From positions 1 through 64,000 of the forward strand of contig NZ_AYKH01000012.1 in the NCBI RefSeq assembly GCF_003788635.1: a DNA stretch of 64,000 nt, in the 5' to 3' direction. The notes beneath the pieces were generated by a model that saw only the letters and a program-made list of their open reading frames with translations, did no database searches and was not told the origin of the DNA. Within the stretch, counting starts at the first letter, position 1. The number at the start of each line of letters is the position of its first letter. A program made the translations under genes and the position numbers. Source of the DNA: Salinisphaera orenii subsp. orenii MK-B5. Its GTDB lineage: Bacteria; Pseudomonadota; Gammaproteobacteria; Nevskiales; Salinisphaeraceae. Shown here one piece after another: positions 28,455 to 61,988 of this stretch.

Positions 28455-29906
28455 TCAGATCGGGTAGTGGCGCGGCCCCGACTGGAGCGTCATCCAGCGC
28501 AGTTCCGTGAATTCGTTGATCCCGGCCTGGCCGCCGAAACGCCCGTAGCCGCTGCTCTTCACGCCGCCGAACGGCATCTGTGCCTCGTCGTGCACGGTGG
28601 GGCCGTTCACGTGACAGATGCCGGACTGAATCTGCTGGGCGACACGCATGCCGCGCGAGCCGTCGCCGCTGAATACGGCGGCCGACAGGCCGTATTCCGT
28701 GTCGTTGGCCAGGCGGATGGCCTCGGCTTCGTCGCGCGCGCGGATCATCGCCACCACCGGGCCGAAGGACTCTTCCGCGTACAGCCGCATGTCCGCGGTG
28801 ACGCGATCGATGACCGTCGGCTGCATGATCACCGTATCCGCCTCGCCGCCACAGGCGATGTCGGCGCCCTTCTCTCGCGCATCCGCAATCAGCTCGTTGA
28901 GTTTCACGCGTGCCGGTTCGCCGATGAGCGTGCCCAGCGGCGTGTCCTCGTGCTCCGGATCGCCGGCCTTCAGGCTTTCGGCCTTGCGCGCCAGCTTTTC
29001 GACGAAGGCATCGGCCACGCTGTCCATCACGATCAGCCGCTCGCTGGACATGCAGATCTGGCCCTGGTTGAAGAAGGCGCCAAAGGCCGCGGCTTCGACC
29101 GCTGCATCCAGATCGGCATCGTCGAGCACCACGAACGGCGCCTTGCCGCCCAGTTCCAGCAGTGCCGGCTTGAGCTGGCGCGCGGCCGTCTCGGCGATGA
29201 TGCGCCCGACCGCGGTGGAACCGGTGAAGTTCACGCGCCGGACGTGCGGGTGTTCAATCAACGCTTTCACGACCTCGGCTGCGTCTTCCGGCGCATTGGT
29301 CACCACGTTGACCACGCCCTCGCCCAACCCGGCGCTGACCAGCGCCTCACCAATCAGATGATGGACCGCCGGGCACTGTTCCGAGGCCTTGAGAATCACC
29401 GTATTGCCGCAGGCGAGGGCCGTAGCGACGGCCCGCGTGCCGAGAATAATGGGCGCGTTCCAGGGCGCTATGCCAAGCACCACGCCGCAGGGCACGCGCA
29501 CCGAGAAGGCGAAGTTGCCGGGCACCTCGCTGGGAATGGTTTGACCACTGACCTGGGTGGTCAGCGCGGCCGCCTCGCGCAGCATGCCGGCGGCGATATG
29601 CACATTGAAACCGGCCCAGCCGGCGGTGGCGCCGGTCTCGGCGACCATGCACTCGATGAACTGCTCGGTGCGCGCTTCGAGCTCGTCGGCCGCGGCCAGC
29701 AATTTCGCCCGCCGGGCGTGCGGGCCGACCTTCGCCCATGCCCCGAACGCGGCATGAGCCGCTTGGGCGGCCGCGTTCGCATTCTCCACGGTCGCGGCTG
29801 CCGCACGAGTGGCCACCATACCCGAGGCCGGCGTACAGCGGTCGAACGTCGTGCCGCCCACCGCCGGGCACGATTCCCCACCGATATAAAGATTAATGCT
29901 GCGCAT
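28455..29906 (-). CDS. vdh: Vanillin dehydrogenase (NAD+ aldehyde dehydrogenase)
   Basis: 483-residue ALDH that oxidises vanillin to vanillate. It has the NAD-binding segment GIAPWNAPIILGTRAVATAL, the NFTGSTAVG loop, the general-base Glu in LLELGGKAPFVVLDDADLD and the catalytic Cys in FFNQGQICMSSERLIV. The sequence is closest in style to the vanillin/salicylaldehyde dehydrogenase clade (HDEAQMPFGGVKSSGYGRFG). It completes the ferulate to vanillate chain of ech/fcs/vanAB. It stands alone on the minus strand, separated from the lower-GC block by a 294-bp gap. Confidence 0.9.
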   Translation of the reverse strand: MRSINLYIGGESCPAVGGTTFDRCTPASGMVATRAAAATVENANAAAQAAHAAFGAWAKVGPHARRAKLLAAADELEARTEQFIECMVAETGATAGWAGFNVHIAAGMLREAAALTTQVSGQTIPSEVPGNFAFSVRVPCGVVLGIAPWNAPIILGTRAVATALACGNTVILKASEQCPAVHHLIGEALVSAGLGEGVVNVVTNAPEDAAEVVKALIEHPHVRRVNFTGSTAVGRIIAETAARQLKPALLELGGKAPFVVLDDADLDAAVEAAAFGAFFNQGQICMSSERLIVMDSVADAFVEKLARKAESLKAGDPEHEDTPLGTLIGEPARVKLNELIADAREKGADIACGGEADTVIMQPTVIDRVTADMRLYAEESFGPVVAMIRARDEAEAIRLANDTEYGLSAAVFSGDGSRGMRVAQQIQSGICHVNGPTVHDEAQMPFGGVKSSGYGRFGGQAGINEFTELRWMTLQSGPRHYPI

Positions 29907-30200: not shown

Positions 30201-30602
30201 CTAATTTCCAGCGGCGCCTTCATTAATCCAACTCTCGAATTTGGCAATCTCTTTCTTGGTTAGAGGCCCACTACCCAGTGGCATACGTGCGCCGCTGCCG
30301 CCGACTTCCAGCTGGTTGCCTTTTAGCTTATGTATCAGGTAGCTCTCCGTGGAATCGCCGGGCTCGACCCTTGCTAAACCGGACTGGGAACTGGGCTGCG
30401 CCACCAAATTGGCCAACGCATTTCTCCGATCGAGTGCTAGGTTCCCTTGTTCAGCGCCACGAACGTGGCATACAACGCATCTTTCGTTAAGAATGGGCTG
30501 AATGTCTTTGCTAAAAATAACCGAATCATCAGCCCTCGGAGCCGAGGACAAAAACGCCAGCAGTACAGCGAAAAAGCGAATCGCGAGAAGCTTAGGCGTC
30601 AT
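30201..30602 (-). CDS. Small exported c-type cytochrome, partner of the KstD-like protein
   Basis: 133 residues with a Sec signal peptide (LLAIRFFAVLLAFLSSAPRA). One heme site CVVCH sits in KDIQPILNERCVVCHVRGAEQGNLALD, which resembles the Planctomycete-type cytochrome C domain, and a likely axial Met lies in ARMPLGSGPL. The ATG at 30602 was chosen because it begins the signal peptide. It overlaps the end of the flavoprotein gene by 11 bp. The two are probably coexpressed and exported, with this protein taking electrons from the flavin. Confidence 0.82.
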   Translation of the reverse strand: MTPKLLAIRFFAVLLAFLSSAPRADDSVIFSKDIQPILNERCVVCHVRGAEQGNLALDRRNALANLVAQPSSQSGLARVEPGDSTESYLIHKLKGNQLEVGGSGARMPLGSGPLTKKEIAKFESWINEGAAGN

Positions 30603-32382
30603 ATGACTGTGCTCCGGCGACCTGTTCCCCCGCGATATAGCCAAAAGTTAGTGCCGGACCAATAGTGCCGCCGCCGCCCCAGTAAGCTTGATGCGCCGGA
30701 CTGGCGACGCAATTCCCCGCCGCGTACAACCCCGGTATCGGTACGCCCTCGGTGTTGAGCACACGGGATCGACTATCAATTACTGCACCTCCCTTCGTGT
30801 CGAGAGTACCAGCGCCCAGTAGTACCGCGTAGTATGGCCCCTTCTCGGAAATCGGGTATAAGGTCTTGTTTGGATAAGGGTTGGTTGGCTTCTGGAGCCA
30901 TACGGTTTGCCAAGCGTTTTCATTTGGTGTCTCGCCCCGACCAAACCTCTCATCCTTACCAGACCTAGCAAATTGATTAAACTGTTCTATCTCTCCAACT
31001 AAATTGCGTTTAAATGACGCATCTAATTTAAGTGCCCCAGTGTGTTCTTCCAAAAGTTGGAGGTGGGTAGCAACCTTGGTCGCTAGCTCATCAAGAGTAG
31101 CTGCGCGAATGATATATTCTGGCAAGCTAGCGTCAGGCCCAGGTATAGGATCGTACCCGGCGTAAGCCTTGTGGCTGCGTCCATCCCATATCATGATTCC
31201 CAAAAGATTCGGATATTCCAGTCTAACCGGGTCCCAATAAAAATGAACCTGGGTTCGTTCGTTGTACGCGATTTTTTCATTGACGAAACGACGACCATAA
31301 CGGTTAACTTGCAACATACTGTCGCCTGGTGGAACCCATACGTTGTAGGGCACGCTGCGCCTGCGTACTGCGAGTTCCACTGGAATCTGGCACCACCACG
31401 CATTGTTCATGTTGCCAAACATTGCGCCTACACCTGCAGCAATCGGAACGAAATCACCCGTACTTCCCGGCATCGCGCAGCCTCCCCACACACGCCCGCG
31501 CAGGAAGCAGTCTGCCATCGCCTTGTTGTGGGTAAATCCGCCGGACGCAAAAACCACGCCTTTCCTAGCTTGGAACTTCACCAAGCCGGCGTCAGGGTCT
31601 TCGACAACGAGCCCCGCGACGCGTCCCCCATCGTTTTTAACCAACGACTTAACCTTGTGGTCCAACAGCACTTCAACGGGCTTGCCCTCAAAACCAGCGC
31701 GAAGTTTGGTCAAGAGGGCATTGCCGTCGCCGCCGGCGGCCGGCCAAAAGGCGCTTTCGGGATTGTCGCTCATGTCCGTGACCAACGAGCGACCGACTTC
31801 GACTTCATCCTCCGGCAAGTGGGCGTGGTAATCCGGCCACACCTGATCTGGCTTGTAGTGCCATGGGCTGATCTTGAGCGTGGTATTAGCCATCAACGCT
31901 TGAATTACCCGGCTACCGTTTAAATAAAACGTTTCGAGCTGTGCAAAAGCGTCGGGAGAGATACCCATGGTTTTATGATCCGGCCGATAAAGGTCAGGAT
32001 AAGCCAACCGGATCATGTAACGTAAAGCGCCCTCGCGATCATCGTTGACTCCTTTCTGGCGCAAGTAAGGATTATTTGGTATCCAAAATACGCCAGCGGA
32101 CTTTCGGGTCGTCCCTCCAGAAAACGGCATCTTCTCCAGGATGAGTACTGTACTGCCAGCTTGAGCGGCTGCAAGTGCAGCGGCGGTACCAGCGGCGCCA
32201 CTGCCCACGACGAGCACATCCGCTTTTCTCTCCCATTTCATCGACTTTTCTGCCCGAACGGCCGGTACGGCGGCGATTCCCGCTATGCCAGACAACAATC
32301 CAGCCCCTGTCGACACAAGTAGCTTACGACGTCGACGGTTAATTGAGTTGTTCTCTGGCCCTTTGTCTTCGTAGTCAACCAT
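30592..32382 (-). CDS. TAT-exported 3-ketosteroid-dehydrogenase-like flavoprotein
   Basis: 596 residues of the FAD-binding-2 (fumarate reductase/KstD) family. The N-terminus NRRRRKLLVSTGAGLLSGIA is a twin-arginine signal. Next come the dinucleotide fold VLVVGSGAAGTAAALAAAQAG, EKMPFSGGTTRKSAGVFW and the C-terminal FAD loop YWGGGGTIGPALTFGYIAG, as in KstD enzymes. The ATG at 32382 has GAGGAAG just upstream. A frame-continuous upstream start at 32499 would read through the 7-bp tandem repeat and is less likely. Classical KstD is cytoplasmic. This one is exported and paired with a cytochrome, so it may dehydrogenate a cyclic ketone-like or phenolic side-chain substrate in the periplasm. The substrate is unknown. 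Confidence 0.82.
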   Translation of the reverse strand: MVDYEDKGPENNSINRRRRKLLVSTGAGLLSGIAGIAAVPAVRAEKSMKWERKADVLVVGSGAAGTAAALAAAQAGSTVLILEKMPFSGGTTRKSAGVFWIPNNPYLRQKGVNDDREGALRYMIRLAYPDLYRPDHKTMGISPDAFAQLETFYLNGSRVIQALMANTTLKISPWHYKPDQVWPDYHAHLPEDEVEVGRSLVTDMSDNPESAFWPAAGGDGNALLTKLRAGFEGKPVEVLLDHKVKSLVKNDGGRVAGLVVEDPDAGLVKFQARKGVVFASGGFTHNKAMADCFLRGRVWGGCAMPGSTGDFVPIAAGVGAMFGNMNNAWWCQIPVELAVRRRSVPYNVWVPPGDSMLQVNRYGRRFVNEKIAYNERTQVHFYWDPVRLEYPNLLGIMIWDGRSHKAYAGYDPIPGPDASLPEYIIRAATLDELATKVATHLQLLEEHTGALKLDASFKRNLVGEIEQFNQFARSGKDERFGRGETPNENAWQTVWLQKPTNPYPNKTLYPISEKGPYYAVLLGAGTLDTKGGAVIDSRSRVLNTEGVPIPGLYAAGNCVASPAHQAYWGGGGTIGPALTFGYIAGEQVAGAQSYDA

Positions 32383-32393
32383 GCTTCTTCCTC

Positions 32394-32463
32394 GTTCCTG
32401 GTTCCTGGTTCCTGGTTCCTGGTTCCTGGTTCCTGGTTCCTGGTTCCTGGTTCCTGGTTCCTG
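32394..32463. repeat. Ten perfect tandem copies of GTTCCTG (7 bp)
   Basis: Seventy bases of uninterrupted heptanucleotide repeat, lying 12 bp upstream of the flavoprotein ATG and 14 bp downstream (transcript sense) of the SDR stop. On the transcript each unit reads CAGGAAC and so carries an AGGA core. A 7-bp unit is not a multiple of 3, so slippage changes both leader length and the frame entering from upstream. Confidence 0.97.
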
Positions 32464-32476
32464 TTCAGCGCTTCCG

Positions 32477-33295
32477 CTACTGAGCGGTATATCCCCCATC
32501 TACAACAAACTCGGAACCTGTCATCCAAGAAGCCGCATCGGAAGCCAAATACAGCGCCGCGCTCGCAACATCAGGGACGCTCCCAAATCGGCCGATGGGA
32601 TGGCCTGAAAGGAACATATGGCGTGCAGCCTCTGGATTCGGCGCAAGACCGACGTTCACAAGCTGCTCGGGCAAGGCGCTACCCATATCAGTCCAGACAA
32701 CGCCAGGATGAATCGAATTGACCCGGATTCCATTCTTGAGCAACCCACATTCCACCGCCAATGATTTTGTCATCAACGATACCGCGCCCTTTGATGCACA
32801 GTAGGCCGTGACCGCGGGCATGCCGACTTTGCCGGCGATCGACGACATGTTGATGATCGACCCACCGTGCCCCGAAGCGCCATCGGGCGACATTGCGCGG
32901 ATGGCATGTTTGCAGCCCAGGAAGACCCCGGTCACGTTGACCTCCATCAGACGTCGGAACGCGGAAACGGACTCCTCGCTAGCCAGCACCATATGTTCGA
33001 TTCCCGCGTTGTTAACTAGGATATCGACACGGCCAAAGGCCCTCACAGTCGCGGCTATCGCCGATTCCCATTCGGGCTCGACAGTTACGTCGTGATGCAC
33101 GAATTTAGCCGTCCCCCCCATGTCACAGATTTCCTTTGCAATTTCCTCTCCTTCCTTGGCGAGCACATCGGAAAGCATGACTTCGGCCCCGGCATCGGCG
33201 AACAACTTACCCATAGCTGCGCCAAGGCCTCGACCACCGCCTGTTACCAATACAACCTTATCTCTCAGGGAAAATAAGCTACCTGAATTGCCCAT
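32477..33295 (-). CDS. Short-chain dehydrogenase/reductase (classical SDR)
   Basis: 272 residues. It has the cofactor loop TGGGRGLGAAMG, NNAG (LVNNAGIEH), Ser in NMSSIAGKVG and YxxxK in TAYCASKGA, plus the C-terminal ASWMTGSEFVVDGGYTAQ. Asp in MLSDVL after beta-2 predicts NAD(H) preference. The ATG at 33295 with GAGGAGAAC was chosen over an upstream frame extension. In this block it would fit oxidation of a secondary benzylic alcohol to a ketone before the Baeyer-Villiger step. That role is inferred. Confidence 0.88.
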   Translation of the reverse strand: MGNSGSLFSLRDKVVLVTGGGRGLGAAMGKLFADAGAEVMLSDVLAKEGEEIAKEICDMGGTAKFVHHDVTVEPEWESAIAATVRAFGRVDILVNNAGIEHMVLASEESVSAFRRLMEVNVTGVFLGCKHAIRAMSPDGASGHGGSIINMSSIAGKVGMPAVTAYCASKGAVSLMTKSLAVECGLLKNGIRVNSIHPGVVWTDMGSALPEQLVNVGLAPNPEAARHMFLSGHPIGRFGSVPDVASAALYLASDAASWMTGSEFVVDGGYTAQ

Positions 33296-33488
33296 CGGGT
33301 TCTCCTCTAGAATTTTGATTTTTGCATTTCTAATTGCTTTAAAATCGGAATTTAAACTTCGCACGGCATCTCCCGCAGATAATGGCGGCATGAAATGAAG
33401 TCTATAGCGGCCGCCTACGCACAATTATCAGCGTGGTTTAAACAAATATAGCGCGTGCGACGGTACTTATCTCAGCCATTCCCAAACA

Positions 33489-34670
33489 CTAGAAATTATA
33501 GCCAAGCCCGACATTGATATAGTCAATGTGAGCGTCGAAGTTGATCCCTTGACTTTCCTCGGTTCCGCGAATACTTCCATAGTCCGCGTATGTATAACTT
33601 CCCGTTATCTCCCATCGAGGGGATGCCTTATAAGTTACACCGAGACTATAATGGTCGTATTGGTTCAGCGGAGCCAGAGTAGAGAGGGTAGTTTCTGACT
33701 TCGGGATTAGCTCGCTAGCGAACGAGGCGCCGGCACGCACAGTCCACCGGCGGTTTACGACATACGATGCACCAAAACGAAAAATATTTTGGTCTTTCCA
33801 CCCAAAACCAGGGCCATCATTTGCCCCCATTGGGCCGCCCTCCGAAAGTTTGTTGCCATATCCTTCCTCGCCGGCCCAGTTAATCCAAAGGAAATCCGCA
33901 GCGAGCGTAAACTTCGGTGAGTATTGGTAACTTAAGCCTACCCCGGCGCGCCGTGGCATGTTAAGCCGCCCATTCGGCAGCAAAGTGTCATAACGATCTA
34001 GTTCGCCATATTTAATCCTGCTAAAATAAGTAACCCCTAAACTCAGGTCTTCGAACAATTTCCCTTGATAGCCAACCGCAAAACCGTATCCATAACTAGT
34101 TTCTGAACCGGGGTTGGAAAAACCAACGCCCTCCAGACCGCCTATATCTAAACGCTGATAAGCTAACCGCGGGGAAAAGCCAATATATTGATTAGGAGAA
34201 AGTTGATAGGTGACCGTAGGGGCAGCGACTACTTGTTTGAGATCAGCCTTTAAATCTGTTGTCCCCAATAACGGCTCCTCGTAGTCAATGCCTAACCCGT
34301 GACCAAAAATGGTCAATCCCACAGTAATCTTCTCATTTAATACCTTATTGAACCCCGCGGTAGGCACGGGAACAAACGCAGTGGTCGAATAGCTATCCGA
34401 ACCAACGTCAGCATCCACTGGCGCGTATAGCACGGTTACATCAACGTCCATACGGTCGCCGACCAGCGCCATACCTGCCGGGTTATTTGCTGACGCCGTA
34501 GAATCCTGAGGCAAAGCTATAGATACCCCCCCCATACCCTGAGATTTCGCCCCATAGCCTGGCAACTCCACTCCATTACCCGCGCTGGCGGACAGAGCAT
34601 ATAACCATGTGAGCGAGCAGATGCAGGTGTTTTTCGTGGTCTTTTTTATAGTTTTTCTATTCGCAATCAT
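33489..34670 (-). CDS. FadL/TodX-family outer-membrane channel
   Basis: 393 residues with a signal peptide ending at ALSASA. Mature N-terminus GNGVELPGYGAKSQGMGGVS and SANNPAGMALVGDRMDV are the hatch-domain signatures of the OmpP1/FadL/TodX family, and amphipathic strands run to a terminal aromatic (LGYNF). Such channels admit hydrophobic compounds such as fatty acids, toluene or alkylphenols. Codon use is markedly AT-richer than elsewhere: a sampled line at 34201-34260 has 27 G+C of 60. Its presence supports a hydrophobic growth substrate for this block. Confidence 0.9.
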   Translation of the reverse strand: MIANRKTIKKTTKNTCICSLTWLYALSASAGNGVELPGYGAKSQGMGGVSIALPQDSTASANNPAGMALVGDRMDVDVTVLYAPVDADVGSDSYSTTAFVPVPTAGFNKVLNEKITVGLTIFGHGLGIDYEEPLLGTTDLKADLKQVVAAPTVTYQLSPNQYIGFSPRLAYQRLDIGGLEGVGFSNPGSETSYGYGFAVGYQGKLFEDLSLGVTYFSRIKYGELDRYDTLLPNGRLNMPRRAGVGLSYQYSPKFTLAADFLWINWAGEEGYGNKLSEGGPMGANDGPGFGWKDQNIFRFGASYVVNRRWTVRAGASFASELIPKSETTLSTLAPLNQYDHYSLGVTYKASPRWEITGSYTYADYGSIRGTEESQGINFDAHIDYINVGLGYNF

Positions 34671-34713
34671 AATTTTTCCGTATTTCTGTAAAATAGGGGA
34701 TTACGCTGTGTTA

Positions 34714-35658
34714 TTAACCACTATGCTTCGATGGCAAACCCCTAAGGTGATTACGGATAGCGTTCACGACGAATGCGCGGGCACGCGTGCTTTCAGGGAA
34801 AAGGCTAAACAAGCTAAAAAAGCCGTGCATCTGGCCGGCAAACCGCTGATGTACAACTTCGACACCTGCTTCTTTTAATTTGTGAGCGTACGCTTCGCCT
34901 TCGTCACGCAGCACATCATGTTCCGCAGTTATGAGAACGGCGGGAGGGAGTCCTGCAAACTCTTCCGCCAATAGAGGGGATGCTTCAGGTTTGAGACGAT
35001 CTTGTGGATTCGGGCAATAGTTATCCCAGAACCACGCCATGTCCTGTTTACCCAGAAATCCCTGGTTTTCAGCACTCAGATAACAAGGGCCCTCAAGATC
35101 CGGCTGGGTAACCGGATAGATTAGAATCTGCTGCGTGATCGCCAACGTCTTTTCACTTGTCGCCATCTGGGCGACCACAGCAGCGAGATTCCCCCCGGAA
35201 CTGTCACCGGCTATCAGCACGGGCATTTCCGAATTACGCGACGCATATTCCGTTGTCGCCCATTGGAGCGCCGCCCAAACATCATCAAGCGCGGCAGGAA
35301 ACGGATTTTCCGGTGCCTTACGGTAATCTACCAAGACGACGCTGCAATTGGTCTCCAACGCGATAAGGCGACCTAACGAGTCGTAGTCGTCTATATCCAT
35401 TACGGTCCAGCCGCCACCGTGACAGTAGATGATTACCCCATCAATCGCGTCACCCGGCGTGAGAACACGTAATTTCGCGGGAGTATTTGCCCCTAGCGGG
35501 ACATCTTTGACGCTGCGCATTTCCGGGCCAGGGCCCAAGAGCTTCCGCAGGCCGCCCATCACTTCACGCGCTTCCGTAACCGACATCTGGTGGAATGGCT
35601 TTATACCTTGATCTTTTAGCGACCCTAAGAACGCTTTTCCTGCAGAATCAATCGTCAT
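34714..35658 (-). CDS. Alpha/beta hydrolase, hormone-sensitive-lipase family esterase
   Basis: 314 residues. The oxyanion HGGG (YCHGGGWTVMD), nucleophile GDSSGGNLA, Asp in ITAEHDVLRDEG and His in QMHGFF form the HSL (family IV) esterase set. It is cytoplasmic, with no signal. Placed between the Baeyer-Villiger enzyme and the SDR, it is the natural candidate to hydrolyse the aryl (or alkyl) ester made by the monooxygenase. The specific ester is inferred. Confidence 0.9.
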   Translation of the reverse strand: MTIDSAGKAFLGSLKDQGIKPFHQMSVTEAREVMGGLRKLLGPGPEMRSVKDVPLGANTPAKLRVLTPGDAIDGVIIYCHGGGWTVMDIDDYDSLGRLIALETNCSVVLVDYRKAPENPFPAALDDVWAALQWATTEYASRNSEMPVLIAGDSSGGNLAAVVAQMATSEKTLAITQQILIYPVTQPDLEGPCYLSAENQGFLGKQDMAWFWDNYCPNPQDRLKPEASPLLAEEFAGLPPAVLITAEHDVLRDEGEAYAHKLKEAGVEVVHQRFAGQMHGFFSLFSLFPESTRARAFVVNAIRNHLRGLPSKHSG

Positions 35659-35716
35659 CTCCTCACCTTTTTTTGTTTTTTCAAGACTTTTATTATTTCA
35701 CTAACAAAGCGCTATC

Positions 35717-36031
35717 TCATCGCTCTTGAGACAAATCGACCTCTTTTACATCTAACGTCACCATCGTAGCCCCTTTGGGTGAATAATTTGGCACGTCCGC
35801 CAGTAACGCCTGCCCGACCTCCGAGTTCAAGGCATCGTTAAGCTCTGCGCCGTTACGCCACACGCCCTCGAAAAACAAGAAATATGGGCTTTCCTCGTCC
35901 TCGACTTGACCATATGAGGCAGATATCAATCCCGGAAACTTGTTAATTTCCGACAGATGCCTGTTCACGTAGTAATCCATGAATTCTTCAGGGTTGTCCG
36001 GATGGGGATAGAACACTATTAATTTATGCAT
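35717..36031 (-). CDS. EthD-family small protein
   Basis: 104 residues with a ferredoxin-like alpha/beta fold. HKLIVFYPHPDNPEEFMDYY and the following NRHLSEINKFPGL match the EthD family (first seen in an ethyl tert-butyl ether operon). Its biochemical role is not established, and relatives are dimeric and often act in small-molecule degradation or cyclisation. It lies between the BVMO and esterase genes, in the same direction. Confidence 0.82.
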   Translation of the reverse strand: MHKLIVFYPHPDNPEEFMDYYVNRHLSEINKFPGLISASYGQVEDEESPYFLFFEGVWRNGAELNDALNSEVGQALLADVPNYSPKGATMVTLDVKEVDLSQER

Positions 36032-36104
36032 GACACTTGTTCCTTTTTGTGTTGTATAAGATCTATGTCGATATATGCGCCCGATCTACGAGCAGAACGT
36101 CGGC

Positions 36105-37748
36105 TCACTCTAGTAAAAATCCCTTGTACCCGTTACGTGCGGAATTCTCGATAATTTCTTGATAACGCGGACCGCCGCCGAGGTACACCATAAATATTTG
36201 AGGTTTCCCCGGGATATTTGCGCCTGAATACCATGAGCTCGCCTTCGGAAGCAGAGTGGTGTCCGCGACTTCTTTCACGTGTGCAATCCATTCGTCTTCT
36301 TTCGCTTTATCGGGTTCTATCGACCCGACGTCATTCTTTTCCATATAGTCAATGCAGTCGGCGATCCAATCGCAGTGCATTTCTATTCCAAGGGGCATAT
36401 TGAACAGGACCGAAGGACTTTGAGGGCCCGTTATCGTGAACATATTGGGAAAACCGTGCGTAGCTAAGCCGTATAGAGTCCGAGGACCCGCGGCCCATTG
36501 ATCTTTCAGGCGCTGACCGTCTCGCCCCCGTATATCCATACGGAACAAAGCTCCGGTAAACGCGTCAAATCCGGTCGCGTAGATAAGCACGTCGAAATTA
36601 TAGGTTTCACGTGTTGTGCGCAGGCCGGTGGGCGTGATTTCTTGAATTGGTGTCTGCTTTACGTCAACTAACGTTACGTTGCTGCGGTTAAAAGCCTCGT
36701 AATAACCGGTTTCGCACGGCTGTCGTTTAGCACCGTAGTAGACGTCCTCCGGCGGACATAGCTTTTCCGCGATGCTAGGATCCTCGACGCGTTCGCGAAT
36801 CTTGGCACGCACAAATTCAGCGGCAGTTTCATTGGCTTTTTCATCAAACAATATGTCTTGGTAACTACCAAGCCACAGCGAGAAACCTCCTTCTTGCCAG
36901 CATGACTCATAATGTTCTGCACGTTGGGCTTGAGATTCTGCTAATGCAGAAGCGCGGGCGTTCGGAAACGGAACACCACCGAACGAATTCCACGCCTGGT
37001 TTCGGAGTGCACTGTAATTTTCCTTAATTTCTTCGTTATCTTTTTCGGTTAGTGGCTTGTTTTGCAGCGGGGCAGCCCAAGCAGGGGTTCGCTGAAACAC
37101 TGTCAGGTGATCCGCTTCTTTTGCGATTAGTGGAATCACCTGCACAGCGGTCGCACCCGTGCCTATAACTGCGACACGTTTATTCGTAAAATTCACACCC
37201 TCCTGCGGCCACCTTCCGGTCACATAACACTCCCCTTCAAACGCCTGCTGTCCAGGGATTTCCGGGACGTTTGCGTCAGATAGCGTACCAACGGCCGGAA
37301 TGAAGTATTTAGCTTCATATTGTTTGCCGTCATCTGTCTTTATATGCCACCTATTAGGCCCCTCAATAAAGTGCGCCGATAATACGCGGCAGTTGAAGGT
37401 TATATTTTTGGCCAGGTCGAATTTTTTCGCCACATAATTCAGGTATTCTAGGATTTCCGGCTGAGCTGCGTATTTTTCTGACCAGGACCACTCTTGCTGT
37501 AATTCTTCGGAAAAAGAATATGAGTAGTGGTAGCTTGGTATGTCGCAACGCGCCCCCGGATAGCAATTCCAATACCATGTGCCGCCGACGCTTGGCGCGG
37601 CCTCAATAAGACCAACTTTTAGATTAAGACGATCTCTTAGCAAGTGCAGCATATAGAGACCCGAAAATCCTGCGCCAACAACCAGGGCGTCCACATTGAT
37701 CCTGCTTTCTGAACTCGCGTTCTCAGTGTTCTCCGGATGTTCCGTCAT
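36105..37748 (-). CDS. Flavin monooxygenase, Baeyer-Villiger type, with altered fingerprint
   Basis: 547 residues. N-terminal FAD fold ALVVGAGFSGLYMLHLLRD, GGTWYWNCYPGARCDIPS and second Rossmann VAVIGTGATAVQVIP are those of class-I BVMOs of the cyclohexanone-monooxygenase type. The diagnostic FxGxxxHxxxW is FEGECYVTGRW, with Val in place of His (codon GTG, re-read on the minus strand). The ATYATGFD-type motif is present as IYATGFDAFTGAL. The start at 37748 has GAGGAG upstream. It is first in the minus-strand run BVMO-EthD-esterase-FadL-SDR-flavoprotein-cytochrome. It probably converts a ketone to an ester, but the His change leaves activity open. Confidence 0.85.
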   Translation of the reverse strand: MTEHPENTENASSESRINVDALVVGAGFSGLYMLHLLRDRLNLKVGLIEAAPSVGGTWYWNCYPGARCDIPSYHYSYSFSEELQQEWSWSEKYAAQPEILEYLNYVAKKFDLAKNITFNCRVLSAHFIEGPNRWHIKTDDGKQYEAKYFIPAVGTLSDANVPEIPGQQAFEGECYVTGRWPQEGVNFTNKRVAVIGTGATAVQVIPLIAKEADHLTVFQRTPAWAAPLQNKPLTEKDNEEIKENYSALRNQAWNSFGGVPFPNARASALAESQAQRAEHYESCWQEGGFSLWLGSYQDILFDEKANETAAEFVRAKIRERVEDPSIAEKLCPPEDVYYGAKRQPCETGYYEAFNRSNVTLVDVKQTPIQEITPTGLRTTRETYNFDVLIYATGFDAFTGALFRMDIRGRDGQRLKDQWAAGPRTLYGLATHGFPNMFTITGPQSPSVLFNMPLGIEMHCDWIADCIDYMEKNDVGSIEPDKAKEDEWIAHVKEVADTTLLPKASSWYSGANIPGKPQIFMVYLGGGPRYQEIIENSARNGYKGFLLE

Positions 37749-37998
37749 AGGTCTGATCTCCTCTTTAATCTTATATTTTCGTTCGGATATCGGGCAGTGG
37801 TCTTTAGCAGTGCTGCCCAGCGCGTGTATCCATAAAATGGGCGACAGCGAGCGCCAAAACACTTAAGCCGGCGAAATGTTCCGACCGCTTTTACGTCCGG
37901 GGCACTCGCGTTTCCGATAGCACCTGATACACCCCACCTAAAAGCTATTCCCGTGTACTTCTAAAATTACGATGCTTATCTCTAAAAAGGCGCTGGCT

Positions 37999-39555
37999 TT
38001 ATACCGAGCCACGTATGCCGGACTTACCAGGGGCAATGATCCCGTTTGGATCGAGCGCGTCCTTGATCGTTCGATGGATATTCCGCAACGGTTCGCCGAA
38101 ACTCTGAGCCGCTCGGTCCATAAATTCGATGTTCGTTCGATAAATACCATAACCGCGCTTCTCGAATTCACCGATAAGCTCAGCGAAACAGGCGTGCGCA
38201 CGCTCTTTTTCCTCTGGATCCTGTCGGTCGTAGAGCAGGTCGATGATGTGATGCATGTCACGCCATCCGACGATGTATTCTGCGACATAGTCGAATCCGT
38301 ACTTGCCGAGAATCTCTTGGGCCAAGTCGGTCTGGTCCCGGGTTTCCTTGCCCTTCGCCTGGGACACGGGCGCGAACCACATGGATCCGCCGCCGCCGCG
38401 CCAGTTGTAAAGGCCAAACTCTTGGAGGTTCATCTCGCCCTTCATGAGCGCGGCTCGATAGCCGAAGGAACCGGAGGCCTTTTCGGCCGCCTCTCCGTGA
38501 AAGATCTTCGCCTTACCGCTTTTGCTGAAGGCTTGCTGGATGATGTTCCAGTTCACCTCGATCTGTTCAGGCGTGCCGTATAGCGCGGCATAGATGTTCC
38601 ACTCGCCGATGCCCTCGTCGCTTTTGATCTTGTCGATGGCTTCGCGCGGGATCGTGCCGTCACCGTCATAGAAATCGCTGCGTGGCTTGTGCGATGCGAC
38701 ATCCCACAAGGTATGAGCGATCACGACTGCGTTAGGAATCACCTGACTGATACGCAGCGGACGCATGATCTCGACAATTTCCTCGATGTCCTCCGGGTCT
38801 GGGTATTGAATCAGGAAGGGACGATAGGCCGGCGGGGCGGGCATGAGCCAAAGCCCCATTTTGGTCACGATGCCGTAGTTGGATTGGGTGAATAGCCCGT
38901 CGATGTAAGGCCCGTAGCCCCACTTGAAGACTTGCCACGACGTAGAGTTCGGAATGCCACCCATGCCCGTACGAACGACTTCTCCATTCGGTAGCACGAC
39001 TTCCATGCCGCACTGGAACATGAAGTGCTCGCCGTAGGGCGTGTAACCGACGCCACGATCCAGCGTGTTACCTACCGGCCCGGCGATTGCCGACGGCGCA
39101 GGTGGATCCAGCCACAGCTTGTAACCCGCCTCCTGGATATAGTCATAAAGCTTTTGATAGGTCACGCCCGGCTCGATGAGCGCGGTGCAGACCTCCGGGT
39201 CGACGTCAATGATCTGGTCCATGTTCCGCAGGTCGAGCATCACCTGACCGGTCTCGCCGGGCGCTGCTGAGCCATAGCCCAGGTTCTTTCCCGTAGAGAT
39301 CGGCCATATCGGCACGCCGTACTCGTTGCAGATCTTCACGATCGCCTGAACCTGTTCCGTACGAGTCGCCAATAGCGCAGCGGAGGGGATATAGTCGCGG
39401 TCGTGGCCCGCCATCATCAACTTGGTGTACGGCGCGAGGTGGTCGCTGTCGATCAGCACGTTATCGCCGCCTACAACATCCTTGAACTTCTGCAAGGCTG
39501 AATCAAAATCGGCGGCGGATACACCGGGCGGTAGAGTGCGGTCGGATTGCTTCAT
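37999..39555 (-). CDS. pchF: 4-cresol dehydrogenase-type (PCMH/VAO family) flavoprotein subunit
   Basis: 518 residues of the vanillyl-alcohol oxidase/PCMH family. It has an N-terminal FAD-binding PP-loop region (GVPIWPISTGKNLGYG), the substrate-domain glycine run GLYNWRGGGGSMWFAP (which contains a Tyr that may be the flavin anchor) and a C-terminal DPNGIIAPGKSGI. In this family the enzyme hydroxylates the benzylic carbon of 4-alkylphenols through a quinone methide, giving electrons to the cytochrome subunit. Gene order pchC-pchX-pchF matches the Pseudomonas 4-cresol methylhydroxylase locus. It could equally be a 4-ethylphenol or eugenol hydroxylase. Confidence 0.88.
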   Translation of the reverse strand: MKQSDRTLPPGVSAADFDSALQKFKDVVGGDNVLIDSDHLAPYTKLMMAGHDRDYIPSAALLATRTEQVQAIVKICNEYGVPIWPISTGKNLGYGSAAPGETGQVMLDLRNMDQIIDVDPEVCTALIEPGVTYQKLYDYIQEAGYKLWLDPPAPSAIAGPVGNTLDRGVGYTPYGEHFMFQCGMEVVLPNGEVVRTGMGGIPNSTSWQVFKWGYGPYIDGLFTQSNYGIVTKMGLWLMPAPPAYRPFLIQYPDPEDIEEIVEIMRPLRISQVIPNAVVIAHTLWDVASHKPRSDFYDGDGTIPREAIDKIKSDEGIGEWNIYAALYGTPEQIEVNWNIIQQAFSKSGKAKIFHGEAAEKASGSFGYRAALMKGEMNLQEFGLYNWRGGGGSMWFAPVSQAKGKETRDQTDLAQEILGKYGFDYVAEYIVGWRDMHHIIDLLYDRQDPEEKERAHACFAELIGEFEKRGYGIYRTNIEFMDRAAQSFGEPLRNIHRTIKDALDPNGIIAPGKSGIRGSV

Positions 39556-39585
39556 GTCGTTACCGTTTTGTTCTGAGGGCAGGGC

Positions 39586-40131
39586 TTAAACGCGAATGAG
39601 GAAACTGTGCTCGCGCGCGTCTCGCGGCGCCGCGACGACGCGTTGTCCAGGTCGCGTATCGGCGTGGGGCGAAAGCGGGGTATGGTCGGCGAGCGCTGCA
39701 TAGAGACCGCCAAGATCACGGCGCCAGTCGCGCGGGTTCGATTCTTGGAAACTCACCGGGCTATTCGTTTTCCAGCTGCGTACTGAGTGCGCCTGCGGCG
39801 CGTGGCGACCCAGGGCCACGATTCGGCCGCGTCCGGCGGCCAGACTGGTTAACAGCACCAACTCTGCGTCGTCGGCAAAGCCGGCGATCCAGTAGCCCGG
39901 GCGGCTACGGGCGAGCTCCAGTACATTGAGTCGGCCAGCGAAAGTGCTTTGCCACCCCGCACGACTAAAGCCCTGCCGTAATGCTCGGCTCGCGCGCTCG
40001 GGGCCATAGACGGCGACCCGGCGTGCCATCAAGGGCGCGGTCGGCTCGCCCGCCGCCAGCCCAACGGCAAAAGGCGCCAGTGAGCCGAGCGCCAGCCCGT
40101 GCTTGAGTAGTTCGCGTCGCGATAACGTCAT
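39586..40131 (-). CDS. pchX: PchX-like TAT-signal protein between pchC and pchF
   Basis: 181 residues. The N-terminus MTLSRRELLKHGLALGSLAP is a twin-arginine signal, followed by a small alpha/beta-looking domain (RRVAVYGPERASRALRQGFS, ELVLLTSLAAGRGRIVALGR) with no recognised catalytic motif. The position, 1 bp after the cytochrome stop and 30 bp before the flavoprotein start, equals that of pchX in Pseudomonas, whose function is unknown. A role in flavocytochrome export or assembly is a reasonable guess. Confidence 0.7.
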   Translation of the reverse strand: MTLSRRELLKHGLALGSLAPFAVGLAAGEPTAPLMARRVAVYGPERASRALRQGFSRAGWQSTFAGRLNVLELARSRPGYWIAGFADDAELVLLTSLAAGRGRIVALGRHAPQAHSVRSWKTNSPVSFQESNPRDWRRDLGGLYAALADHTPLSPHADTRPGQRVVAAPRDAREHSFLIRV

Positions 40132-40132
40132 G

Positions 40133-40477
40133 TCATTTCTCCGTACTGCGGGGGGCAAACTCGCCGCTCATGAGCGCTTCGAGCAGCGCATCCAGTTCCA
40201 CGTCGCTGATCTCGGAATGACGAAATGCGGGCATGGCATTGCGACCATGGCGCACAACTTGGCGCATGTAATCGCCACGCGCCTTATGTACGGACTCGGG
40301 AAATTTCATGGTGATGGGCGGCCCCACGGCCTTATCGCCCATATGGCAATGTGCGCAGACTTGATTGAATACTTGGTGTGGCGCGCGCGGTTCCTCGGCC
40401 TCCGCGGCCGTCACGGTCACGGCAAGCAGTATTAGTGCGAACAGCGCAGCTAACGCGCCCCTTGGGGTTACCTCCAT
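40133..40477 (-). CDS. pchC: 4-cresol dehydrogenase-type cytochrome c subunit
   Basis: 114 residues. A Sec signal (LAALFALILLAVTVTAAEA) is followed by a single heme motif CAHCH (FNQVCAHCHMGDKAVGPP) and a likely axial Met in RNAMPAFRHSEIS. The size and order match the cytochrome subunit of PCMH-type flavocytochromes. It is the first gene of the pchC-X-F set and divergent, across 240 bp, from the sigma-54 activator. Confidence 0.88.
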   Translation of the reverse strand: MEVTPRGALAALFALILLAVTVTAAEAEEPRAPHQVFNQVCAHCHMGDKAVGPPITMKFPESVHKARGDYMRQVVRHGRNAMPAFRHSEISDVELDALLEALMSGEFAPRSTEK

Positions 40478-40717
40478 CGCAGCAGTCTCCCTTTGCTTTT
40501 TGTCGAAATGCGATCACAACGTGTGCGACCGCGAATCTACGTCAATCCAAAGATCGTGCCCACTTTGCTGACACAAGGAACTTCTATTCAAATACAATAA
40601 CCTATGATGTTTTCGATCGACTGCCAGCCGCATACTTATTGTTTATATGCGCAACGCAATACATAATAATTCATCAAATAATTAACTTGTGCGACGAAAA
40701 GTGAGGAGAGATAGCCA

Positions 40718-42421
40718 ATGCCGTGTCAATACAAACCGAGTTATCCAAGCACCCGAGACCTCGTACAGGCACTACGCTTTCTGCCTGAAGAGGGCCAGAT
40801 CTGGCTGGGCGAACAGCGGATGCTGCTTATGCCGCTGCAGGCCTCGGCCTTCTTTCGTGAGGAACTGGTTAGGCACCTAGGCATGGAACGCGCCAAGGGC
40901 CTGTTCATGCGGCTTGGCTATCACGCTGGGCTGCGCGACGCTGAGCTCGGTCATACGCTTCGCGATCGCCCTGAACAGCTTGAGGAAAGCTATTTCGCCG
41001 GGCCCCAGCTTCACGCTCTACAAGGTCAGGTACTAGCGGTGCCCATCGCGCTCGATATGGACCTGGAAAACGATCGCTTCTACAGTGAATTCGTCTGGGA
41101 GAATTCTTTTGAGGTCGATGCTTGGCGAGCCCAGGGCCTGCAAAACGAGCCCGTTTGCTGGACGCTTCTCGGATACGCTAGCGCCTACGCCAGCCATCTT
41201 TTCGGTCGCGAAGTCCAGTTCCGCGAACTGGAATGTCGCGGTCGAGGTGATGCCAGATGCAGGATCGTCGGGCGCTTGGCCCACGAATGGGCCGATCACG
41301 AAAGCTTCGCCGAGTATTTTCGAGCTGATCCTCTGATCAATGAACTCCACGAGCTACAAGACCAGATGGCCACGCTCCAAGCTGACATTGCGCGTACTCG
41401 CGCCGATCAACCGCCAAGTGCGACCGGCCGCTCACGTGCCTTCCGTAACATGCTGGCGCTTCTCGACAGCACCGCACCCACCGAAGTACCCATACTTCTA
41501 CATGGCGAGACAGGGACCGGCAAAGAAGTGTTAGCGCGGCGTATTCACCAAGGCAGCCACCGAGCCGAAGGCCCATTCGTAGCCATCAATTGTGCCGCGA
41601 TTCCGCCCGATCTGGTAGAAGCCGAGCTATTCGGCGCGGAAAAAGGCGCTTTCACCGGCGCAACGGAGCGGCGCATCGGCCGGTTCGAACGAGCATCTGG
41701 CGGGACCTTGTTTCTGGACGAGGTGGCTGAACTTTCTCCCCGTGCCCAAGCGGCGCTGCTACGCGTCCTAGAGGAAAATGAAATCGAACGTGTCGGCGGG
41801 CAAAGCGTGATCAGTGTAAATGTGCGGCTCGTTGCCGCGACCCATGCGGACCTCTCCGTGCGCGTAGAAGACGGTCAGTTCCGCAAGGACTTATTTTATC
41901 GGCTTAATTCTATGACGCTGCGCATACCCGCGCTGCGCGAACGCATGGACGATATCGTTGAGTTCGCCGAACAGTTCCGCCACAACTTTGAAACCCAGTA
42001 TGAACATCATACGCTCGGTTTCACCGATCAGGCCGTATCAGCACTTAAGCGCCATCAATGGCCAGGCAATATCCGCGAGCTCAAGAACACGGTCGAGCGC
42101 GGCGTCATCCTAACTGCCCCACGCACACGCATCGTCGAGCACGCGCTTTTTGCCCAGGCGCCACAGAGCACCGGCGCGCAAGCAAATAGTCATCGGTTAG
42201 ACGCGCAGGGACACATCGAAATTCGGGATATGCCGAATGAACAAACCGACCTAACGACTCTGGTCAAACCACTATTTGCGGCCGGCAAGAGTCTAGACGA
42301 GATAGAACAAACAATGATCCAGATTGCGCTCAACGCAAACAACGGTAACGTCTCTTCTGCGGCACGTAGTGTCGGCATGAGCCGTGCGACTTTTGACTAT
42401 CGACATAAGAAATATAAATGA
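40718..42421 (+). CDS. Sigma-54-dependent activator, XylR/DmpR class
   Basis: 567 residues. An N-terminal XylR_N sensor precedes a V4R domain (about 150-195, GREVQFRELECRGRGDARC) and a B-linker. The AAA+ core has Walker A GETGTGKE, GAFTGA (sigma-54 contact), Walker B GGTLFLDE and the R-finger region. A Fis-type HTH lies at the end (NVSSAARSVGMSRATFDYR). Such proteins bind an aromatic effector directly and open sigma-54 promoters. It is divergent from pchCXF, so control of that set and perhaps the BVMO block is likely. I could not find a convincing -24/-12 promoter. Confidence 0.92.
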   Translation: MPCQYKPSYPSTRDLVQALRFLPEEGQIWLGEQRMLLMPLQASAFFREELVRHLGMERAKGLFMRLGYHAGLRDAELGHTLRDRPEQLEESYFAGPQLHALQGQVLAVPIALDMDLENDRFYSEFVWENSFEVDAWRAQGLQNEPVCWTLLGYASAYASHLFGREVQFRELECRGRGDARCRIVGRLAHEWADHESFAEYFRADPLINELHELQDQMATLQADIARTRADQPPSATGRSRAFRNMLALLDSTAPTEVPILLHGETGTGKEVLARRIHQGSHRAEGPFVAINCAAIPPDLVEAELFGAEKGAFTGATERRIGRFERASGGTLFLDEVAELSPRAQAALLRVLEENEIERVGGQSVISVNVRLVAATHADLSVRVEDGQFRKDLFYRLNSMTLRIPALRERMDDIVEFAEQFRHNFETQYEHHTLGFTDQAVSALKRHQWPGNIRELKNTVERGVILTAPRTRIVEHALFAQAPQSTGAQANSHRLDAQGHIEIRDMPNEQTDLTTLVKPLFAAGKSLDEIEQTMIQIALNANNGNVSSAARSVGMSRATFDYRHKKYK

Positions 42422-42554: not shown

Positions 42555-43062
42555 TTTGATGTCAGGGTGGCCCTATCCGTCAAGGTAGTTGTCGACCGGC
42601 TAGATAGCCAAATCACGGTACTGCTGAATGCGCTCAAAGCTCATATTCATGACGATGCCGATCTGCGGCCCAAGCACTTTTGCTGACCAGCATTCCCGGC
42701 ATCAGTGCCAAAACAGCGGCGTTGTTGCTGCCTGAACTCGGTGATCCGTTGTCGTTCACCGGCGCACGCGAAATCGCGGCTTTTGCCGGCCTGAATCCCA
42801 AGCTGGCCGAATTGGGCGAACATAAAGGGAGTGCGCACATCTCACGCACGGGCTCGGTGCGACGTCGCGTTGGGCTCTACGTACCCGCTATCGTGACGAT
42901 GACACACAACCCGGCGATCAAGGCGCTTCGGCAGCGTCTGCAACAACGCGGCAAGGCCGGCAAGCAGATCGCCTGTGCCGTCTGCGTAAATTGCTGCATA
43001 TTGTGTACGGCGTGCTCAAATCCAACAGGCCGTTCGATCCGGCATTCGCTATTGCACGCTAA
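42555..43062 (+). pseudogene. IS110-family transposase C-terminal remnant, frameshifted
   Basis: Three frame pieces reassemble an IS110 C-terminus. The first is a helical stretch (VVVDRLDSQITVLLNALKA, from 42555). The second, after a shift near 42675, is LLTSIPGISAKTAALLLPEL ... FAGLNPKLAELG, and the third, after another shift near 42980, is RLRKLLHIVYGVLKSNRPF ending at 43062. The helix-hairpin-helix SIPGI and AGLNP motifs are diagnostic of Transposase_20. The catalytic DEDD half is absent. It separates the pch region from the pca cluster. Confidence 0.8.
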
Positions 43063-43181
43063 TACCCGGGACTGTATCTACTGAGACGTCACACCTAGGC
43101 CGTCGCCGCTAACCACGCAATGCCTGTGCGGACGGGCTTGCCAGCGCATCGGCCGCGCCAGATGACAAGAACCCGGCCGGC

Positions 43182-50617: not shown

Positions 50618-50747
50618 CCACTGGTTCGACTTTCACTTGGCAGCACGAGCCGTTACGGCAAACTGAAAGCCATAACAAGACGCGCGGCAAGGAGCCGACG
50701 GGTTAATCCCAGCTCGAACGCGCGTGAAATCGCAGGAGATAAACCCA

Positions 50748-51485
50748 ATGGCGCAGAACGACCATACCGCTTTCGTCATGCGCGATCGGGGCTGGCACCC
50801 GCCCGCCTATGCACCGGCCTACAAGACGTCGGTCGCCCGGTCGCCGCAGCAGGCGCTGATGAGCCTGCAGACGCCGACGGCTTCCGAACTCACCGGCCCG
50901 GACTTCGACAACTTCGTCCTCGGCCCGGTCGATAACGACCTGCTGCTGAATTTTCGCCCCGGCACGGACCGCGACGGCCTGCCGATCGGCGAGCGCATCA
51001 TCGTCTACGGGCGCGTGGTGGATCAGTACAACAAGCCGGTTCCCGGCACCCTGGTCGAGGTCTGGCAGGCGAACGCCGGCGGGCGCTACCGGCACAAGAA
51101 GGACGCCTATATGGCGCCGCTGGACCCGAACTTCGGCGGCGTGGGCCGTACGGTTACCGATGCCGACGGCTGGTATCGCTTTCGCACCATCAAACCCGGC
51201 CCCTACCCCTGGCCGAACGACGTCAATTCCTGGCGGCCGGCGCATATCCATGTCTCGGTCATGGGCCCGTCGATCAGCACGCGCCTGATAACCCAGCTGT
51301 ATTTCGAAGGCGATCCGCTGATCCCGCTATGCCCGATCGTGAACACGCTCAACGATCCGGAGGCGGTCGACACCCTCGTGGCCCGTCTCGACAAGGCCGG
51401 CTCGCGACCGATGGACAGCCTGGCGTACCGCTTCGATATCGTCACCCGCGGCGCGCTGCAGACCTACTTCGAGAACCAGGGCTAA
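50748..51485 (+). CDS. pcaH: Protocatechuate 3,4-dioxygenase, beta subunit
   Basis: 245 residues, the Fe(III)-binding subunit of the intradiol dioxygenase that opens protocatechuate to 3-carboxymuconate. It has [17 protein letters not shown], the ligand Tyr region [16 protein letters not shown] and the His pair [12 protein letters not shown]. The ATG at 50748 has AGGAG about 7 bases upstream, so the in-frame GTG at 50724 was rejected. It is 10 bp ahead of pcaG. Confidence 0.95.
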
Positions 51486-51495
51486 GGGGTTAGAA

Positions 51496-53369
<1,874 letters not shown>

Positions 53370-56625: not shown

Positions 56626-57162
56626 CTAGGTGAATGGACGTAGCGGTTCTTTGCCATCCCAGCCGACCGAGGCGGCATAGCAGCGGCCAAAGAATTCATC
56701 CATTCCCTCGCTTACCTCTATGAGTTCGAGAAAGCCTGGTAGCTCGCCCTTCGTGTCCAGATAGGCCACACGGTCGTCGGTCGGCACCCTAGCCTGGAAG
56801 GCCAGATCGTAACCGCGTCGTTCCAGGCGCTGCACATCGGCGCCGAAGTGAGGTGAGCCTACGCCGAAGTGGTGAAAGCCGTAACCGCGTGCCTCACGTG
56901 TTTCCTTGTAGACCGAAGGATGATCGTCATTGGGTTGCAGTAGCTCAATCATCATATGCCCAGCGAAAGCCATGCCGATCTTAACGCTCGCCTTAGAAGG
57001 CTTGCCGCGATAGATCGCCTCCTCGCCCTTGAAATCCTCCAGTACAAACCAGGGGCCGACGTTCAGATCGTCAATCCATCGCTGAATCTCGTCCTCGAGG
57101 TGAGCCACGATATAGGCGGTCTGGATGATCGAGTTCGTGGGCTGACCAAAACTTAATCGCAT
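56626..57162 (-). CDS. VOC (glyoxalase/dioxygenase) superfamily protein
   Basis: 178 residues with two vicinal-oxygen-chelate half-folds. IIQTAYIVAHLEDEIQRWID and GFHHFGVGSPHFGADVQRLE carry candidate metal residues (His in HHFG, Glu in ELLQP, Glu near LELIE). It is the last gene of the minus-strand cluster. VOC members include extradiol dioxygenases, isomerases and epimerases, and I cannot narrow it. GGAGA lies before the ATG. Confidence 0.8.
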   Translation of the reverse strand: MRLSFGQPTNSIIQTAYIVAHLEDEIQRWIDDLNVGPWFVLEDFKGEEAIYRGKPSKASVKIGMAFAGHMMIELLQPNDDHPSVYKETREARGYGFHHFGVGSPHFGADVQRLERRGYDLAFQARVPTDDRVAYLDTKGELPGFLELIEVSEGMDEFFGRCYAASVGWDGKEPLRPFT

Positions 57163-57238
57163 GCTGTCTCTCCGTAGTCAGAGCGCGTAGGTTCGGCGGC
57201 GACCGACAGGCCGCCGCTTCGAGCGGAAGACAAAGGCG

Positions 57239-58513: not shown

Positions 58514-58700
58514 TGTGTTCTCCTCGAAGGAAGGCACGGGGCGACGTGCGCGCCCGGCCCGCGCGATCTAGTGCAGGTTCTGGTTATTAGTCTTTTGATG
58601 GCGAGCTAGGACCGTCGGACCGGCGCAGGCGCCGTTCGCGACGCCGGTTCGATCAACGGGGCTAGGCAGTGTTGTCTTCTTTTTCCACTCGCGAGCCCGG

Positions 58701-59705: not shown

Positions 59706-59893
59706 ATCCTGTCTCCGTGGAAAATAAGATTGGCCTTTCAGACCGCGCCGAGCGATGCACCACCGTCGATGACGACTTGGGCGCCGGTAACAAAGGAAGA
59801 CGCCTCGGAAGCTAGAAACAAAGCCAGCCCCTTGATCTCGTCGGTATCCGCGACCCGGCCCAGCGGCACGCGTGTCTCGAATGCACGCCGGTC

Positions 59894-61295: not shown

Positions 61296-61988
61296 CGCCG
61301 GTCCGCCGGATTGCGCAACCGCCCGCCCGCAATATTGGTCGCGAAGGGCCCAGGCGCGATCGCATTCACACGAATGTTGTGCTGGGCGAGTTCGAGCGCC
61401 GCCTGGCGTACGAGCGAGGCCGCGCCCGCCTTGGCCGGCATATAGGGCGTGCCGACGATCGGTTCGTTGATCACGGCGGCATTCGAGGTGGTCACCACAA
61501 TCCGGCCGCCGCCCGCTTTCTTCATATGCGGCACGGCCGCCTGCAACGTCGTGAACACGCCTCCCAGATTGGTATCGACGACCGCACGCCAATGGGACGG
61601 ATCGATCGATTCGAGCATGCCGTCCGGATTGCGTTCGCCCTCCGCAGTGAGAAACCCTGGCCCTGCATCGATACCGGCGTTGGCGAACACCGCATCGAGA
61701 GCGCCATAGTGTTCGGCGGCCGCATCCACGGCAGCGAACAGCTGCTCGCGATTCGTCACGTCGACGGTGGCGGCCCGGGCATCGGCGCCGCTGTCGCGGA
61801 GCGTCTGCGCGGCGCGCTCGGCACCCTGCCCATCGATATCCATCAACGTAACGCGGGCGCCGTTTTCGGCCATGGCCTGCGCATAGGCGAGGCCGATGCC
61901 GCTTGCCGCACCCGTGACCACCGTAGCCAGTCGCTCGACCGAAAAAAGATTCTGCTCCATCTCGCCACTCCTCTGTGCGAACCGCTGG

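Follow-up and report, generated by a model that had tools for sequence, protein, structure and literature searches.

Does a block of low-GC genes, lying within a host cluster for aromatic acids, encode one catabolic route or two? This question is raised by a 64,000-nucleotide stretch of the genome of Salinisphaera orenii subsp. orenii MK-B5 (contig NZ_AYKH01000012.1, positions 1 to 64,000; the window), in which a preliminary description had arranged the genes at 30201-40477 into a single route from 4-alkylphenols through aryl ketones to hydroquinone. All ten open reading frames over this interval, on the minus strand, proved to be real, and the domain calls held when examined by Pfam and NCBIfam matches against family cut-offs, which again identified a PSCyt-like cytochrome, FAD_binding_2, a short-chain dehydrogenase/reductase (SDR), a FadL/TodX channel, an HSL-type esterase, EthD, a Baeyer-Villiger monooxygenase (BVMO)-like protein, a p-cresol methylhydroxylase (PCMH)-type flavoprotein and a class-I cytochrome c. 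The low-GC block (30.2-43 kb) is best interpreted as a pair of modules, module A (38.0-42.4 kb) and module B (30.2-37.75 kb), which probably do not form a hydroquinone-yielding alkylphenol route. The evidence consists of gene content, conserved residues, missing hydroquinone-exit genes and a difference in composition. Of the proposed enzyme line-up, the PCMH entry and the general chemistry stood, whereas the single pathway, hydroquinone, an enzyme of HAPMO type and a KstD-like flavoprotein did not. We see roughly even chances that the block is a composite acquisition within a host cluster for ferulate, vanillate and 4-hydroxybenzoate, with module A being of p-cresol type and module B a separate ketone-cleaving unit.

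The key components of module A, together with its candidate exit genes, are as follows:

28455-29906, minus strand: aldehyde dehydrogenase (Aldedh) of host composition, probable exit for 4-hydroxybenzaldehydes
37994-38011, minus strand: weak hairpin resembling a terminator, at the stop codon of the PCMH gene (scan match; total scan count not above chance)
37999-39555, minus strand: PCMH flavoprotein subunit, PchF-like (305 of 512 residues identical to PchF, 1dii)
39586-40131, minus strand: Tat-signal protein in the pchX position, without any family match in Pfam or NCBIfam
40133-40477, minus strand: class-I cytochrome c with a signal peptide, PchC-like (P0010; Cytochrome_CBB3)
40546-40562, minus strand: weak sigma-54-like -24/-12 site TGGGCACGATCTTTGGA upstream of the PCMH operon (2-mismatch intergenic match)
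40718-42421, plus strand: DmpR/XylR-family sigma-54 activator (XylR_N, V4R, AAA+, Fis HTH), divergent from the PCMH operon
50724-53369, plus strand: pcaH, pcaG and pobA (NCBIfam equivalogs above cut-off), the 4-hydroxybenzoate/protocatechuate exit

The flavoprotein is homologous to PchF over its full length (60% identity, 725 bits) and keeps Tyr95, Glu380, Tyr384 (the FAD link), Glu427, His436, Asp440, Tyr473 and Arg474, while Lys takes the place of Arg512, a substitution shared with the related solved enzymes 9ffk and 8s7p. The adjacent cytochrome expected of a PCMH is also present, P0010 having the PCMH cytochrome subunit as its top solved match (1dii_C, E=6e-7). The pch operon has the order pchC-pchX-pchF, and the operon of Pseudomonas putida resembles module A in comprising, in this order, a cytochrome c, a small protein and the flavoprotein. 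It differs in that here a DmpR-type regulator is divergently encoded and the aldehyde dehydrogenase lies beyond module B instead of adjoining. Small Tat-type proteins also adjoin PCMH genes in three of the compared loci (L008, L106 and L107), with very low similarity to the one in the window. PinAB, the pinoresinol hydroxylase of Pseudomonas sp. SG-MS2, is likewise a VAO/PCMH flavocytochrome that opens an oxidative aromatic route (reviewed in PMC12997858); it is likened to module A by description.

The regulator, whose domains include HTH_8, has CapR/DmpR (6iy8, 533 bits) as its closest solved structure and shares its domain order. It retains the equivalents of His100 and Trp128, which position phenol in DmpR (PMC7264223), and is thus a predicted phenol regulator of DmpR type. 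Three pocket positions differ from DmpR (Tyr90 to Leu, Phe93 to Tyr and Val113 to Leu), and XylR has Tyr where both DmpR and the protein found here have His100. The sigma-54-like site TGGGCACGATCTTTGGA is considered weak because seven such matches occur in the window against 5.8 expected; no strong sigma-54 promoter was found, only 2-mismatch sites at chance level.

The identity to PchF, the active-site residues and the DmpR-type regulator support the entry step on para-substituted phenols that the preliminary description had proposed. The activator would sense a phenol and switch on the periplasmic flavocytochrome, which in turn would oxidise the benzylic carbon of a para-substituted phenol via a quinone methide, taking oxygen from water and passing electrons to the cytochrome c. 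The resulting aldehyde would then proceed through the aldehyde dehydrogenase, PobA and PcaGH. The aldehyde dehydrogenase is 62-63% identical to those beside PCMH in L006, L007 and L121, and 64% to one that L130 carries within a ferulate cluster. Among the closest PCMH relatives (61-65%), three have an aldehyde dehydrogenase of this class nearby, and two of these also have a DmpR-type regulator. Since enzymes of this class occur both beside PCMH and among ferulate genes, 4-hydroxybenzaldehydes are plausible substrates for the one found here. With a PchF-like operon, a phenol-type regulator and this exit, module A is complete and ordinary by sequence, and its assignment as a p-cresol-type oxidation leading to protocatechuate is well supported. 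We also considered whether module B had been inserted between PCMH and its own aldehyde dehydrogenase; this was suggested by the neighbours of the relatives, but weakened by the presence of the same class in ferulate clusters, and was not retained.

A product of hydroquinone type, on the other hand, would have no visible exit. The preliminary description had seen no hydroquinone dioxygenase in the block, and this absence now extends to the whole genome (98.2% complete) for PF18191 (PnpCD-type), the sole hydroquinone dioxygenase family tested; LinE/PcpA-type dioxygenases were not searched for. The same genome has no match to PF04444, the N-domain of catechol/hydroxyquinol-type intradiol dioxygenases, or to maleylacetate reductase. 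The same searches were positive elsewhere: of 299 genomes, 1 matched PF18191 and 25 matched maleylacetate reductase, and PF04444 was present in 2 of 14 control genomes. These results count against the scheme as originally drawn, in which PCMH would hydroxylate a 4-alkylphenol, the SDR would give an aryl ketone, the BVMO a phenyl ester and the HSL esterase hydroquinone or methoxyhydroquinone. That scheme fits the gene content on paper and agrees with a phenol-type regulator, and its reaction types match those of the hap pathway for 4-ethylphenol and 4-hydroxyacetophenone; unlike that pathway, however, the locus has neither a HAPMO-sized BVMO nor, as far as found, a hydroquinone lower pathway.

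The general logic of PCMH, ketone, BVMO and esterase is nevertheless real chemistry, having been established for bisphenol F by the bpf cluster of Sphingobium yanoikuyae DN12 (PMC12724174), and this cluster is a published parallel for the original scheme. The bpf gene set, present in L106, holds in one locus a PCMH-type flavocytochrome (48% identical to the one here), a BVMO, an alpha/beta hydrolase and an SDR. BpfA lacks the FAD-linking Tyr (PMC12724174), and neither BpfC (402 aa) nor BpfD gave a significant BLASTP match to the proteins found here. The scheme is therefore precedented but, if it operates here, it was assembled from different enzymes. Considering also the BVMO-like protein described below, which is not HAPMO-sized and lacks a fingerprint His, we regard the hydroquinone route as unlikely.

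Module B comprises seven genes, from the BVMO-like gene through the PSCyt-like cytochrome, and one repeat:

30201-30602, minus strand: PSCyt-like c-type cytochrome (CxxCH, signal peptide), overlapping the flavoprotein stop
30592-32382, minus strand: Tat-exported cyclohexanone-dehydrogenase-like flavoprotein (378 bits to 8am8)
32388-32463, plus strand: heptanucleotide tandem repeat TTCCTGG, about 11 copies, between the SDR and flavoprotein genes
32477-33295, minus strand: SDR dehydrogenase (adh_short_C2)
33489-34670, minus strand: FadL/TodX-type outer-membrane channel (Toluene_X)
34714-35658, minus strand: HSL-family (Abhydrolase_3) esterase
35717-36031, minus strand: EthD-family protein (TIGR02118, 52 bits against a cut-off of 30.5)
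36105-37748, minus strand: BVMO-like class B flavoprotein monooxygenase of PAMO/STMO type, 547 aa

HAPMO-type BVMOs are about 640 aa long. With its most probable start at 37748, the BVMO-like gene encodes 547 aa, and its product scores 597 bits to PAMO (1w4x) and 550 bits to STMO. It contains GAGFSG and GTGATA, and the type I fingerprint [A/G]GxWxxxx[F/Y]P[G/M]xxxD is present (GGTWYWNCYPGARCD). The other fingerprint, FxGxxxHxxxW[P/D], is broken by Val in place of His (FEGECYVTGRWP). Of 77 aligned stretches (the query among them, and some of them repeats), 63 have this His, and the 60% relative has Phe. Compared with PAMO (1w4x) and steroid monooxygenase (4aos), the protein shows full-length similarity, conserved Asp and Arg columns and equal loop length, the replaced His being the difference. 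Because the broken fingerprint is a hallmark of all 121 BVMOs surveyed (PMC4498894), we call the protein BVMO-like rather than filing it as a BVMO. The HAPMO type assumed earlier does not fit a PAMO/STMO-like protein of this length without the second-fingerprint His, as judged by size and solved relatives.

The exported flavoprotein is closest to cyclohexanone dehydrogenase (CDH), being 37% identical (210/565, full-length) to that of Alicycliphilus denitrificans K601 (PDB 8am3/8am6/8am8; PMC10966990), and keeps all five of the CDH residues Tyr195, Cys305, Tyr376, Tyr570 and Gly574. In contrast to the K601 enzyme, it has a PSCyt-type cytochrome partner and is not followed by 3-hydroxycyclohexanone dehydrogenase genes. 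The PSCyt1 score of this cytochrome is just below the cut-off, and the protein is 43% identical to the cytochrome beside the flavoprotein homologue in L011. A cytochrome gene adjoins flavoprotein relatives in L011, L012, L119 and L120, while the EbN1 relative is without one. On plasmid pNL2 of Novosphingobium aromaticivorans (L011:11785-14710), the flavoprotein homologue, a PSCyt-type cytochrome and an SDR are consecutive amid several ring-hydroxylating dioxygenases. The TTCCTGG repeat immediately precedes the likely flavoprotein start, where strain-to-strain variation in length could be conceived.

The former label of this flavoprotein, KstD-like, is not borne out by its scores: 378 bits to CDH (8am8) against 160 to KstD, and 283 bits in the KstD equivalog model, whose cut-off is 789. 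The same figures bear on the removal of a steroid side chain, for which the SDR would serve as a 20-hydroxysteroid dehydrogenase, followed by an STMO-like BVMO, an HSL acetate esterase and a KstD-like flavoprotein. Such a function would suit the second-best kind of solved relative of the BVMO-like protein (STMO) and the nearest solved relatives of the SDR, which include 3alpha,20beta-hydroxysteroid dehydrogenase besides R-specific alcohol dehydrogenases. However, the genome has no KshA_C match, with positive controls, and no other KstD-like protein. The KstD/steroid reading was rejected on the scores and the absent KshA, and we consider it extremely improbable.

The CDH-like flavoprotein instead points to cyclic ketones rather than alkylphenols as substrates of module B. 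We infer the following order of steps: FadL would admit a hydrophobic substrate, the Tat-exported flavoprotein would desaturate a cyclic ketone beside the carbonyl and pass electrons to its cytochrome, the SDR would interconvert alcohol and ketone, and the BVMO-like enzyme would form an ester or lactone to be opened by the HSL esterase. Module B reads as an unusual ketone-cleaving set, for which an alicyclic ketone is our best guess at the substrate, ranked before an arylacetone, and an arylacetone before the aryl ketone of the preliminary description.

The arylacetone substrate would join both modules without hydroquinone. A PAMO-like enzyme would turn a ketone of 4-hydroxyphenylacetone type into a benzyl ester, the HSL esterase would release 4-hydroxybenzyl alcohol and PCMH would oxidise this to the aldehyde. 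Phenylacetone monooxygenase is indeed the closest solved enzyme, a protocatechuate exit is present, and in Acinetobacter the areCBA genes, which are under a sigma-54 regulator, set a precedent for the use of benzyl and 4-hydroxybenzyl esters (PMC4213383). Relatives of FadL, HSL and EthD also lie within about 6 kb in the styrene/aryl-alcohol region of pTTS12, where FadL belongs to an aryl-alcohol/benzaldehyde dehydrogenase cluster, but the likeness is just 57% (FadL), 41% (EthD) and 35% (hydrolase). Moreover, the product must pass from the cytoplasm to the periplasm to reach PCMH, and the CDH-like flavoprotein is left without a role. This route is possible, though doubtful.

Returning to two modules, composition differs between the block and its surroundings and between the two halves. 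The lower GC noticed earlier was borne out, with values of 0.49-0.59 across 30-43 kb against about 0.65 outside, and the block reaches beyond 40477, through the regulator and then an IS110 remnant, still at low GC:

42680-43084: IS116/IS110/IS902-family transposase fragment, bordering the low-GC block

At third codon positions (GC3), values of 0.50-0.58 for module B and 0.65-0.72 for module A compare with 0.81-0.87 for the genes around them. The block proteins P0001 and P0002 had no strong matches in any of the 16 other genomes of this family, which fits recent acquisition. No flanking repeats, att-like ends or RNA families were found. The codon-usage distance between A and B is 0.146, and a 250-bp gap with a weak hairpin separates them. 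No BVMO relative examined is accompanied by the remaining genes of module B, and no second copy of the set was observed in 33 contig loci, the plasmid loci examined and 369 sampled class genomes (single-protein queries, non-exhaustive). Thus, the claim of one pathway is disfavoured by the differing halves, the gap and a gene set not found together elsewhere, which together favour, but do not prove, two modules that would act separately.

Several observations weigh against this division. The modules adjoin on one strand, so a single regulator could serve both. The hairpin between them is weak, the terminator scan count being not above chance, and the A-B codon-usage distance barely exceeds the largest split within B (0.141), with only three genes concerned. 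The aldehyde dehydrogenase belongs to a widespread subfamily that ferulate clusters contain as well, and hence is not tied to PCMH alone. In addition, a cyclic substrate for module B is proposed from sequence, with no genome-wide search for 3-hydroxycyclohexanone dehydrogenase genes.

A more speculative connection between the modules is that two periplasmic flavocytochromes work in series: the CDH-like enzyme would convert a 4-substituted cyclohexanone into a para-alkylphenol by aromatisation, and PCMH would then oxidise this phenol, with trimming of the side chain left to the BVMO-like enzyme and the esterase. We consider this very unlikely; if true, it would be an oxygen-independent entry from alicyclic rings through 4-hydroxybenzaldehydes to protocatechuate. 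If module B is functional, it would bring together a periplasmic flavocytochrome of an uncharacterised family and a BVMO-like enzyme whose sequence departs from the fingerprint by which BVMOs are recognised, and both could widen the known enzymes of ketone desaturation and oxygenation. The locus also advises caution, in that co-located enzymes should not be taken as one pathway until downstream genes have been checked.

A second cluster of aromatic-ketone type was observed at 56626-62507, consisting of a VOC protein, an MFS transporter, a Zn-alcohol dehydrogenase, an SDR and a cupin. The cupin is related to 2,4'-dihydroxyacetophenone dioxygenase (4p9g/5bpx, E=5e-20), and the cluster could represent a hydroquinone-free route for aryl ketones. 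Halomonas (L133) and Pseudosulfitobacter (L132) also have the cupin, SDR and alcohol dehydrogenase together with a XylR-type regulator, and L122 has most of the set close to a PCMH-like gene. The cluster contains a mobile element:

60032-61228: Mutator-family (IS256-type) transposase

Beside it, the SDR at 61271-62101 is without about 50 C-terminal residues that its relatives have, and an imperfect 13-nt inverted repeat is located at about 59908 and 61269.

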